Positions 724-33,708 of a DNA stretch of 64,000 nt are shown here, piece by piece. Numbering within the stretch: the first letter of the stretch is position 1; each line of letters opens with the position of its first letter. Source of the stretch: Sinorhizobium numidicum (GTDB taxonomy: Bacteria > Pseudomonadota > Alphaproteobacteria > Rhizobiales > Rhizobiaceae); the NCBI RefSeq assembly GCF_029892045.1, contig NZ_CP120368.1, positions 3,596,001-3,660,000 of the forward strand, given 5' to 3'. Under the pieces are notes generated by a model, which saw only the letters and a list, made by a program, of their open reading frames with translations, searched no databases and was not told the DNA's origin. Made by a program: the position numbers and the translations under genes.

Positions 724-1994
724 GCGGCGTCGAGGTCATAACCTTCGGCTGCCGCCTCAACACCTATGAATCGGAAGTGATGCGGGCGGAAGCCGAGAAG
801 GCGGGGCTGAACAACGCCATCCTCGTCAACACCTGCGCCGTCACCGGCGAGGCCGTGCGTCAGGCGCGCCAGGCGATCCGCCGCGCGCGGCGCGACAACC
901 CGCATGCACGCATCATCGTCACCGGCTGCGCCGCCCAGACCGAAAAGGAGACCTTCGCCGAAATGGCCGAGGTGGATGCGGTGCTCGGCAACGAGGAGAA
1001 GCTTACGAACGCCTCCTATCGCTCGCTGCCGGATTTCGGCGTCTCGGCCGAGGAAAAACTCCGCGTCAACGACATCATGAGCGTCACGGAAACCGCCCCG
1101 CAAATGGTGAAGCACATTGACGGGCATGTGCGCGCCTTCATCCAGGTGCAGAACGGCTGCGACCACCGCTGTACCTTCTGCATTATTCCCTACGGCCGCG
1201 GCAATTCGCGCTCGGTGCCGATGGGCGCGGTCGTCGATCAGGCGCGCCGGCTCATCGAAGGCGGCTACCGGGAGATCGTGCTGACCGGCGTCGATGCAAC
1301 GAGTTACGGCGGCGATCTGCCCGGAACGCCGACGCTCGGGTTGCTCGCCAAGACGCTGTTGAAGCAGGTCCCGGAAGTCCTCCGTCTCCGCCTGTCATCG
1401 ATCGACAGCATCGAGGCGGATCGGCATCTTCTCGACCTCATCGCCGACGAGCCGCGCTTCATGCCGCATCTGCATCTGTCGCTGCAGCACGGCGACGACC
1501 TGATCCTCAAGCGGATGAAACGACGGCACTCGAGCGCCGATGCCCGCGCCTTCTGTGACGAGGTCCGCCGCCTGCGGCCCGAGATCAGCTTCGGCGCCGA
1601 CATGATCGCCGGTTTTCCGACCGAGACCGAGCCGATGTTCAACAATGCCGTCCGTCTCGCCGAGGACTGCGGCATCGCGCGTCTGCATGTCTTTCCCTAT
1701 AGTCCGCGCCCCGGCACGCCGGCCGCGCGTATGCCGCAACTCGACCGCGCTCTCGTCAAGGATCGTGCCGCACGCATGCGGGCGAAGGGCACCGAGCTTC
1801 ACGCCGCGCACCTCGATCGCATGATCGGTAGCGAGCAGACGATCCTCATCGAGATGAAGGGGCTGGCGCACACGGAAAACTTCACGCTCGTCGATGCGGC
1901 CGGCCTCGAGCCGCGGTCCCTTGTTGCGGTCACGATCACCGGCCACAATGGCAAGCATCTGACGATGCAGCGAAAACAGATGGCTGCGGCCTGA
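720..1994 (+). CDS. mtaB: tRNA t6A37 methylthiotransferase MtaB
   Basis: Radical-SAM methylthiotransferase expected to convert t6A to ms2t6A at position 37 of ANN-decoding tRNAs. The protein is about 424 aa from the TTG at 720. The N-terminal UPF0004 domain carries Cys11, Cys39 and Cys70 for one 4Fe-4S cluster. The radical-SAM motif CDHRCTFC gives Cys147, Cys151 and Cys154 for the second, followed by a TRAM-like C-terminus. The TTG start is chosen because GGAG lies at 706-709 and it overlaps the dapF stop. The open frame runs on upstream only as an antiparallel-independent shadow of dapF. MiaB-type activity on i6A is the alternative, but the NTCAVT and IIPYGRG forms fit MtaB better. Confidence 0.9.
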
Positions 1995-2009
1995 AATCCG
2001 GACATTCGA

Positions 2010-3818
2010 ATGGCGATTGGTTTCATCAAGAAGATCTTCTCCTTCGGCAAAGACGCCGTCGAGGAGAAACCTGCGCCGCCGCAAGAGGCTGCGGCGGAGA
2101 CTCCAGAGACGGCGGCGATACCCCCCTCTGTCCCTTCGGGAGATCTCCCCCACAAGGGGGGAGATCAGATCGCTACCGAGGCAACTGCCGAGGGTGACCG
2201 CACCACTATCGAGGAGGCAAAGGCCAGCGCGGACGATCTCTCTGGCTCTCTGTCCGCGGAAGACACGGACGCCCGGAGCGAAGGTTTCGAGGCCAGTCCG
2301 ACCATCGCTGCCGACGAAAGCGTCAGGATAGAAGACGAGAGCCTCCCGCGTCCAATCTTCCCCCCTGCAGGGGAGAAGACCGGCGGGGCAGAGGCGGGTG
2401 AACCCGCCTCCGAACACGCCGAGACACTTGATGATGACAAGGGCGCGGCGGCGATACCCCCCTCTGTCCCTTCGGGACATCTTCCCCACAAGGGGGGAGA
2501 GCAGATGGCGACCGGGGCAACCGCCGAGGACGACACTGCAATCGGGGAGGCAAAGGCCGGCACAGATGATCTTGCCGTCTCGCCCGAATTGACCGCACGC
2601 GAGGCCGACACCACAGGCGATGTCGGTGCATCGCCCGACCTGCCCAAGGAAGACCCCGGCGCCACACGCGAAGGCGCCTTGGAAAACACGGACCTCGCTG
2701 CCGATGAAAACGTCACGGTGCATGAAGAGAGCGCCGCCATGCCAATCTCCCCCCTTGCGGGGGAGATGCCCGGCAGGGCAGAGGGGGGTGATGCAGCAGA
2801 GCCGCAGCTCTCAGTCGCACCCGCCCGCGATTTACCAAAAGGCTTCGCGGCCTCCGACCAGCGGCCTCGAGAGGAAGCGCCGGCGCCCCAGCCGAAGCTC
2901 TCCTGGTACCAGCGGCTGCGGCAAGGCCTCGCGCGCACCTCGTCGCAACTGACGGGCCAGATCGCCAGCCTCTTCACCAAGAGGAAGCTCGATGAGGCGA
3001 CGCTGCAGGATTTGGAAGACCTGTTGATCCAGGCCGATCTCGGAGTCGAGACCGCAATGCGCATCACCGATACGCTCGCCTCCGAGCGCTACGGCAAGGA
3101 TGTTACCGGCGACGACGTCTCCCGCATCATGGCCGGCGAGATCACCAAGGTGCTGGCGCCGGTCGCCAAGCCGCTGGAGCTCGATCTCAGCCACAGGCCG
3201 CATGTGATCCTTGTTGTCGGGGTCAACGGCACCGGCAAGACCACGACGATCGGCAAACTCGCTGCCAAGCTCTCCGGCGCCGGCCTGAAGGTAATGGTGG
3301 CGGCCGGCGATACCTTCCGCGCTGCTGCGATCGAACAGTTGAAGATCTGGGCCGAGCGGACGAAATCCGAGATCGTCTCCTCGAAGCTCGGCGCCGACGC
3401 GGCCGGGCTTGCCTACGACGCCTTCCAACTCGCCCGGGAAAAGAGATCCGACGTTCTGATCATCGATACCGCCGGGCGACTGCAGAACAAGGCCGAGCTG
3501 ATGGCCGAGCTCGAAAAGATCGTCCGCGTTCTCGCCAAGCTTGATCCCGACGCGCCGCACACCGTGCTGCAGACGCTCGATGCGACGACCGGGCAGAACG
3601 CCCTGCAGCAGGTCGAGATTTTCCGCAACGTCGCCGGCGTCAGCGGCCTGATCATGACCAAGCTCGACGGCACGGCACGCGGCGGCATTCTGGTTGCGAT
3701 CTCCGCCAAACACAAATTGCCGGTCTATTTCATCGGCGTCGGCGAAGGTATTGACGATCTCGAGCCCTTCGAGGCGAGGGATTTTGCCGAGGCGATCGCC
3801 GGCGTTGCCGCGTCCTGA
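2010..3818 (+). CDS. ftsY: Signal recognition particle receptor FtsY with repeat-expanded acidic N-terminus
   Basis: SRP receptor GTPase that docks ribosome-SRP complexes at the membrane for co-translational insertion. The 602-aa protein has a conserved NG domain from about residue 300. It shows the P-loop [10 protein letters not shown] near 404, then DTFRAAA, DTAGRLQ and [10 protein letters not shown]. The first 300 residues are an acidic, low-complexity A region, longer than usual. That region contains four in-frame translated copies of a GC-rich palindromic repeat (2118-2166, 2354-2401, 2454-2500, 2744-2791) in a duplicated module. ATG at 2010 follows mtaB by 15 bases. The G-domain motifs look intact, so the protein should be functional. 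Confidence 0.95.
2118..2166 (+). repeat. GC-rich palindromic element copy 1, inside ftsY (forward)
   Basis: A 48-bp element beginning ATACCCCCCTCTGTCCC and ending in the short hairpin TCTCCCCCACAAGGGGGGAGA. It is read in frame as residues resembling [15 protein letters not shown]. It nearly matches copy 3 directly and the reverse complement of copies 2 and 4. Confidence 0.85.
2354..2401 (-). repeat. GC-rich palindromic element copy 2, inside ftsY (reverse)
   Basis: Inverted copy of the element at 2118. It begins AATCTTCCCCCCTGCAGGGG and ends GCAGAGGCGGGTGA, and is translated as [17 protein letters not shown]. The reading frame is kept across the element. Confidence 0.8.
2454..2500 (+). repeat. 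GC-rich palindromic element copy 3, inside ftsY (forward)
   Basis: Near-identical to copy 1 over its whole length, including the same upstream flank CGGCGGCGATA. It is translated as [17 protein letters not shown]. The shared flank shows that a larger module was duplicated, not only the element. Confidence 0.85.
2744..2791 (-). repeat. GC-rich palindromic element copy 4, inside ftsY (reverse)
   Basis: Inverted copy with the hairpin CTCCCCCCTTGCGGGGGAG, read as [16 protein letters not shown]. It closes the second copy of the forward-spacer-reverse module. Confidence 0.85.
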
Positions 3819-14669: not shown

Positions 14670-14774
14670 TGTTTCCTCATTTAAGCCCCGGTTGAAGTGA
14701 CGGTGTCGGGCGGTAAGTGTCTGTCCTTAAAGCGCCCAGGCGCCGCTGCGGGGCTCCAGCATGCCTGTGCACAA

Positions 14775-33374: not shown

Positions 33375-33552
33375 CGAAATACTCCCCGTTTTGGCGAACA
33401 AACGCCGCCGAGCGTTGTTTGAGTTCAGAGCCCTGACAAGCGTCCAGGCCTGTCGCAAACTCTTGATAGCGCAGGCGGCTCGTACGGCAAGTGCTTCCAC
33501 CCAAACTCCGCTTGCCTTGGCTGCCGCCGGAAGCTAAATCTCTGCTGCTCTA

Positions 33553-33645
33553 ACGGGGTGCCTGGGTTCGCTTGCGACCCGATGGCTGAGAGGCTTCGGG
33601 CCAACCCGCGGAACCTGATCCGGCTCGTACCGGCGGAGGGATTAG
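33553..33645 (+). promoter_or_regulatory. TPP riboswitch (THI element)
   Basis: Conserved THI-box blocks occur in order: ACGGGGTGCC at the 5' stem, GGCTGAGAGGC in the pyrimidine-sensor arm, and AACCTGATCCGG followed by ACCGGCGGAGGGAT in the pyrophosphate arm. It sits 60 bases before thiB on the same strand. TPP binding is expected to shut down thiBPQ, probably by sequestering the ribosome site. Confidence 0.93.
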
Positions 33646-33708
33646 AAGCGATCGGACCGATACGCGCTTTTCCCGTGCAGCATCAACAACAGGGGAGAGG
33701 TGCCCAAA

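Follow-up and report, generated by a model that had tools for sequence, protein, structure and literature searches.

Palindromic elements that code for protein are best known from Rickettsia, where reduced genomes and weak selection are natural explanations for them. Rhizobia have dispersed, partly palindromic repeats of their own, such as RIME, the Sm repeats and the A, B and C palindromes of S. meliloti; RIME was reportedly described by Osteras in 1995 within a two-component system, and chvI-chvG is said to be the place. For the RU elements of enterobacteria, we know of no frame rule. The passages on Rickettsia palindromic elements (RPEs) in PMC10969869 and PMC3733652 present dispersed palindromic repeats that sit in frame in unrelated genes, where they are read as an extra peptide, and also between genes; the first of these papers sums them up and, in the section concerned, deems a similar mechanism elsewhere conceivable. 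As far as their sections on RIMEs and relatives go, PMC2573895, PMC2245857 and PMC2873474 treat these repeats as intergenic, unlike the in-gene copies described here. The relevant part of PMC3733652 describes the GTAG and CGTC REPs, which go with RAYT transposases, as short palindromes that frequently come as inverted pairs and are sometimes located within genes, and lists in-gene copies of other bacteria in genes such as uvrA and uvrB, while the portion of PMC2759123 devoted to the RU elements describes MITE-like repeats in frame in genes. No paper on in-gene copies of the present element in Rhizobiaceae was found among the matches listed from an open-access library, outside which many journals lie.

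In this study, we analyzed a window of 64,000 nucleotides from Sinorhizobium numidicum and propose that the palindromic arms within its ftsY gene very probably mark the termini of a MITE-like Rhizobiaceae repeat present as two tandem copies, which entered in frame and survived where the frame was benign and the linker flexible. Set beside the RPEs by description, the element can be said to work like them, the likeness being one of mode of working: hairpin-forming palindromic DNA is inserted in frame in unrelated protein genes. The resemblance to RPEs suggested in the earlier note holds in this sense, with copies in frame in several host genes. Unlike an RPE, the Rhizobiaceae unit consists of two arms, each with two hairpins, in inverted orientation round a spacer, its hosts are free-living and GC-rich, and a whole module is duplicated in ftsY. 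It shares terminal inverted repeats with MITEs, and with RIME, the Sm repeats and the A, B and C palindromes a dispersed, partly palindromic presence in rhizobia. In contrast to the REPs, the arm consensus contains neither the GTAG nor the CGTC tetranucleotide on either strand, and most element-bearing genomes have no Y1/RAYT-type match; the comparison with the enterobacterial RU elements is again one of description. The kind of element is already known as an RPE-like coding palindrome, and what is new is the lineage, the hosts and the architecture.

Table 1. Features of the window ftsY, arms elsewhere in the S. numidicum genome, and host genes with family matches flanking an element on either side (two-sided).
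Feature	Position or loci	Strand	Residues	Remarks
ftsY, signal-recognition-particle receptor	2010..3818	+	602 aa	ORF; Pfam SRP54 and SRP54_N; alignment with 17 homologues
FtsY A domain			15-298	
FtsY N and G domains			299-602	
Arm F1	2120..2166	+	37-53	13-nt first hairpin; 1 mismatch to subfamily consensus
Module 1 spacer	2167..2354	+	53-115	acidic
Arm R1, reverse copy	2355..2399	-	116-130	called degenerate because of 7 mismatches to its subfamily consensus
Linker, module 1 to module 2	2400..2455	+	131-149	
Arm F2	2456..2502	+	149-165	13-nt first hairpin; 2 mismatches to subfamily consensus
Module 2 spacer	2503..2744	+	165-245	acidic; homologous to spacer 1
Arm R2	2745..2789	-	246-260	0 mismatches to family consensus
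Inverted pairs elsewhere, own genome	C1:1248429/1248615; C2:984283/984486; C2:2198846/2199071; C2:2200725/2200929; C2:3462192/3462362			
Single arms, own genome	C2:2141732; C2:2357899			
CobG, two-sided	L262, L263, L264, L300			Pfam/NCBIfam
RibD, two-sided	L265, L270			place of second RibD_C stretch judged by eye; both insertions at about the same place
CobB, two-sided	L266			
CobN third site, two-sided	L273			
Urea carboxylase, two-sided	L280			
Double ABC ATPase, two-sided	L330			

The four arms of the window ftsY lie in frame in the order F1, R1, F2, R2, between the conserved N-terminus and the GTPase domain (Pfam SRP54_N at residues 314-374, SRP54 GTPase domain at 397-596), each within 2 bp of where the earlier note had placed four palindromic elements in the N-terminal extension of FtsY. 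In the alignment with 17 homologues, the arms fall between an invariant start, with A2, F5, K7, F10, F12 and G13 among the residues identical in 18/18 proteins, and the NG domain; since all four follow this conserved start, they cannot be put down to a misplaced start codon. The A domain that harbors them is 22% Asp/Glu, and the letters PGSTAEDQNKR make up 85% of it versus 66% of the NG part. Direct repeats at +333 (53 nt, 74%), +336 (89 nt, 90%) and +390 (152 nt, 70%) bear out the duplication of the whole F-spacer-R block. The same note had counted four 48-bp copies of one element: the four arms are present, but they are unequal, with first hairpins of 13 nt or 12 nt, and the natural unit is the inverted pair of F arm, spacer and R arm, often about 200 bp, rather than the single 48-bp arm. 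Likewise, both orientations had been described as free of stops; the arm consensus is indeed open in all six frames, yet this is weak evidence of design, as 21% of composition shuffles are open as well. With up to three mismatches, the 12-nt-hairpin arm pattern has R2 as its sole match in the real window, since F1, R1 and F2 diverge further from it, and dinucleotide-shuffled versions of the window, 100 in all, give 0 matches to this pattern. Rfam at gathering scores returned nothing at the ftsY arms; elsewhere in the window it placed a ybhL leader (RF00520) at 14681-14767 (-) and a TPP riboswitch (RF00059) at 33544-33658 (+). An antisense ORF of 442 aa (1395-2723, minus strand) crosses the ftsY modules and is probably spurious, a product of GC-rich codons and stop-free arms.

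Each arm consists of two hairpins. The first is 13 nt long in the F arms of ftsY (GTCCC-TTC-GGGAC, with the outermost pair broken in F1) and 12 nt long in R2 (GCCC-TGCC-GGGC); the gene is a mosaic of F arms of the 13-nt form and R arms of the 12-nt form. Both forms vary with compensation, as GTCC..GGAC, GCCC..GGGC and GGCC..GGCC in the 12-nt form and GTCAC..GTGAC, GTCGC..GCGAC, GTCCC..GGGAC and GGCCC..GGGCC in the 13-nt form. The latter is present in 43/297 Rhizobiaceae genomes; its two matches in the S. numidicum genome, both on the plus strand, are F1 and F2, as each of these fits the form with one mismatch. Since the mosaic is common to Sinorhizobium and many Rhizobium ftsY genes, it suggests one old origin. 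A well-preserved unit measures about 150-205 bp, and the commonest F-to-R span is 201 bp in both cobN (9 times) and ftsY (8 times), with spans of up to 354 in ftsY. The terminal inverted repeats read CCCCCTCTG...CAGAGGGGG, mostly with further AC and GT outside, at the cobN sites and in the copies of NGR234.

Across the family, one scan supplied 80 ftsY loci, of which L080 (without an FtsY ORF) and L092 (truncated) were left out; the remaining 78 and the window make up 79 genes. With 10 mismatches allowed, 63/79 contain one arm or more and 16/79 none, by a limit that misses diverged copies such as that of L077, which is clearly retained by eye. Two F-R pairs are found in 9/79 genes, one in 40/79 and none in 30/79. 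Other lineages carry other arms: ftsY of L086, L091, L105 and L107 contains an F arm of the 12-nt type in the frame PPSVLPDISPSRGEI, while that of L095 and L106 (Rhizobium) has, in its A domain and in the corresponding frame, a related but distinct sister palindrome, PPTLPGVPPTGGG (ACCCCCCCTACCCTGCCGGGCGTCCCCCC...), apparently an independent insertion. On the FtsY core tree (288 columns, 79 rows), five arm classes assigned by eye need 8 changes, two of them for the 12-nt class and three for 'none'; two such changes may be one gain plus one loss. Given these tree changes together with the differing sequence and frame, the further copies can be read as separate insertions, and ftsY apparently made at least two further, independent acquisitions. 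Variation is also seen at close range, as Ensifer adhaerens L046 has one module and L051 and L056 have none, with identical FtsY cores. The F arm of several Rhizobium and Pararhizobium ftsY genes (L058, L060, L065, L070, L071, L075, L077, L102) contains a longer insert within the first hairpin, which would represent either a further subfamily or a nested event.

The arrival of different arm types in the same FtsY domain could also be taken as a sign of domestication, in which the length of an acidic, Pro-rich linker in the A domain is useful for tethering to the membrane or translocon and the number of modules is selected. The spacers of the window ftsY are acidic (25-27% Asp/Glu), and modules seem to have been re-duplicated or homogenised in some species, given a within-gene identity of modules of 69-93% in 17 genes (93% in L032, 82% in L035) against between-species means of 72-74%. 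We nevertheless regard selection on module number as rather unlikely, because close relatives lack modules (L051, L052, L055, L056 and the Shinella rows) and a tolerant, fast-evolving region would gather insertions without selection.

For cobN, we compared 31 Sinorhizobium genes (from 30 of 33 genomes and the S. numidicum genome; G314 and G202 were left unread). Two sites were seen, one around residue 200 and the other around residue 750-830; depending on the gene, they hold an element, stand empty or retain remnants, and 25 intact pairs are distributed over 16/31 genes. CobN ranges from 1264 to 1445 residues in length, and when L112 is aligned to the solved CobN 9uk9, gaps appear at both sites. 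Remnants such as those at site 2 of L109, L112, L113, L126 and L128 look like frame-keeping deletions inside the palindrome. A deletion between two CCCCC runs would account equally well for the 'empty' site 1 of L118. Three of the 32 spacer-spacer matches fall on the minus strand (74-79% over 98-109 bp, E 3e-16 to 2e-19); the unit thus sits in cobN in both orientations, and both are read through. The ftsY spacers gave no blastn match to the cobN spacers at E 1e-3, so the interior of the ftsY modules may derive from the host or have diverged too far.

Pairing in coding arms of the 12-nt type is high, with 95-97% of the stem cells paired in 50 cobN and 85 ftsY arms, and the two stems of 42 arms from NGR234 are paired at 99% and 93%; these percentages are inflated, since resemblance to the consensus was the basis on which arms were chosen. 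The pairing carries over to the encoded residues. In the CobN F arm the residue pairs are V-D (15), A-G (11) and V-A (1), and in the R arm P-A (16), S-T (8) and P-E (1), with a Fisher p of about 1e-7 and 1e-6, respectively, for two-by-two tables without V-A and P-E and with kinship ignored. Such pairing, together with hairpin types that vary with compensation across genomes, would also be expected if the arms were kept for a role of the hairpin at the mRNA or DNA level, whether in pausing translation, in stabilising or placing the mRNA or in recombination, the peptide being a by-product. This we hold to be very unlikely: with 16/79 ftsY genes armless by the rule used and cobN sites often empty or degraded, no hairpin is needed in those genes, and descent from different subfamilies may account for both pairing and covariation without selection in place.

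The same arms are widely dispersed, and in rhizobia the element is usually intergenic. In an even draw of 297 Rhizobiaceae genomes from a larger group, the arm is present in 145, a single strand carrying as many as 151, whereas none of the 297 matches a reversed control pattern. BLAST with F1 against the S. numidicum genome (6.72 Mb, 3 contigs) yields 14 matches at E <= 4e-4, which include F1, F2 and R2 and from which the degenerate R1 is absent. The genome search proposed in the earlier note thus finds the element at 11 places outside ftsY, 9 of them within five inverted pairs; the second arm of the pair C2:3462192/3462362 lies outside the F1 BLAST list and was seen in a separate search. In NGR234, F-R pairs take in 44 of 59 listed arms. 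The same note would have taken a fixed copy number, with the element absent elsewhere, as the mark of an old internal repeat; in fact the ftsY genes of Sinorhizobium and Rhizobium differ in copy number.

The finding is also broader than that note had it, since ftsY is one of several host genes and the F arms are a distinct hairpin subfamily. Searches with the element peptide covered 199 genomes and gave at least 62 with a match in the cobN frame; for the peptides of the two other frames the figures are 82 and 81 genomes, with at most 30 candidates scored per genome and best matches considered. Among these best matches, the three peptide searches contributed 28, 29 and 30 new, partly overlapping loci. 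At least 90 ORFs of 220 aa or more run through an element among the matches listed; Pfam was run on 20 of those 90 and NCBIfam on 12 of the 20. Ten of the 20 have family matches flanking the element on either side (Table 1), and the hosts include three cobalamin synthesis genes (cobN, cobG, cobB). One-sided cases were not counted as internal insertions, namely pbpC (six loci named by eye, L148 alone checked by Pfam/NCBIfam), uvrB L024, a di-haem oxidoreductase (L163), a glutamine synthetase (L284 minus) and an aldehyde dehydrogenase (L285). In the S. numidicum uvrB (L024, C2:2141732), a single R arm lies in frame in the C-terminal tail, past the UVR motif. Pfam found no family in L289, L311 (both strands), L317, L327, L284 plus, L277 and L293, and three long ORFs (L154, L157, L146) were discarded because by eye they are probably antisense or spurious. 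The view that the acidic FtsY domain simply harbors an old, ordinary internal repeat, arisen in place and unrelated to any dispersed element, would suit a tandemly duplicated F-spacer-R block common to many Sinorhizobium, but it is already contradicted by the dispersed copies, with the same arms at many unrelated loci and in frame in other genes and other arm types in ftsY of other lineages (L086, L091, L105, L107; L095, L106), and is extremely unlikely.

The copies in these coding sequences are subject to a length constraint. The F-to-R span is a multiple of three in 58/58 ftsY pairs and 25/25 cobN pairs, versus 7 of 19 control pairs from NGR234 (remainders 0, 1 and 2 in 7, 5 and 7 pairs), which were chosen regardless of genes from 30 of 59 arm places, one of the 19 being in cobN. 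These counts reflect the constraint and are no tally of independent events, as the pairs come from intact ORFs and related genes. In addition, one frame is strongly favoured for in-gene copies. The cobN frame is used by 10/10 ORFs with two-sided family matches, including L300 and L330, though these were first fetched by other-frame queries; the CobN copies L258, L261, L268 and L286 and the FtsY L272, named by likeness by eye, agree with it. Exceptions or gaps exist. The glutamine synthetase L284 minus and the aldehyde dehydrogenase L285 use other frames, with the family downstream only and a later start codon possible; the N-terminal element of the di-haem oxidoreductase L163 is read in another frame and may lie upstream of the true start; and among the 8 of 20 ORFs without a known family, 4 would use other frames (L317, L327, L284 plus, L293). 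The 13-nt F arms of ftsY encode PPSVPSG in the cobN frame and then, owing to the extra base, shift in their second half to another element frame with HLPHKGGD (DLPHKGGD in F1). The favoured frame encodes hydrophilic Pro/Gly-rich peptides, and the other two, in the canonical form, carry Cys or Trp, which may be the reason for their purging.

As to mobility, a Y1/RAYT-type transposase (PF01797) has 0 matches in the S. numidicum genome and is present in 28/297 genomes; the arm occurs in 11 of these 28 and in 134 of the 269 without it. RAYT as the mobiliser is unsupported, 134 of the 145 arm-bearing genomes having no Y1/RAYT-type match. Comparison of five pNGR234b elements with other plasmid records revealed no transposition event or target-site duplication: three sites could be aligned from nine stretches, without a clean empty site, as three relatives have an apparent decayed remnant at the L199 site and the flanks of the other two sites are too diverged. 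At chvG, the arm is absent from all Sinorhizobium loci compared (0/30), which included very little sequence downstream of chvG. We infer that the element may be mobile in trans.

A MITE-like palindromic repeat would thus have entered the ftsY coding sequence in frame and been tolerated because its frame was free of stops, its length settled at a multiple of three and the surviving frame encoded a short, hydrophilic, Pro/Gly-rich peptide within a flexible linker or a disordered region. The ftsY insertion would be old and would then have been duplicated as a module in Sinorhizobium, while other Rhizobiaceae would have gained different copies in the same FtsY domain, or none. Loss would proceed by deletion inside the palindrome and leave in-frame footprints. 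A hairpin-forming sequence is apparently read here as extra protein, and tolerance is the presumed cause of the pattern.

A bolder extension, doubtful but a real possibility, is that the family has been filtered for life in proteins. Intact copies of the 12-nt type would then persist within genes in just one of the three frames, in either orientation, their hairpins would impose covariation on the host protein (Val-Asp/Ala-Gly; Pro-Ala/Ser-Thr), and the element would act as a recurrent generator of linkers, domesticated in FtsY as an acidic tether of variable copy number. As a caution, covariation and length variation in these proteins can stem from DNA hairpins rather than from protein structure. 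An analogous process to that of Rickettsia appears to be at work in large, free-living, genetically tractable genomes, reaching FtsY and three genes of vitamin B12 synthesis, which makes bench tests of tolerance, frame choice and the fate of insertions feasible.
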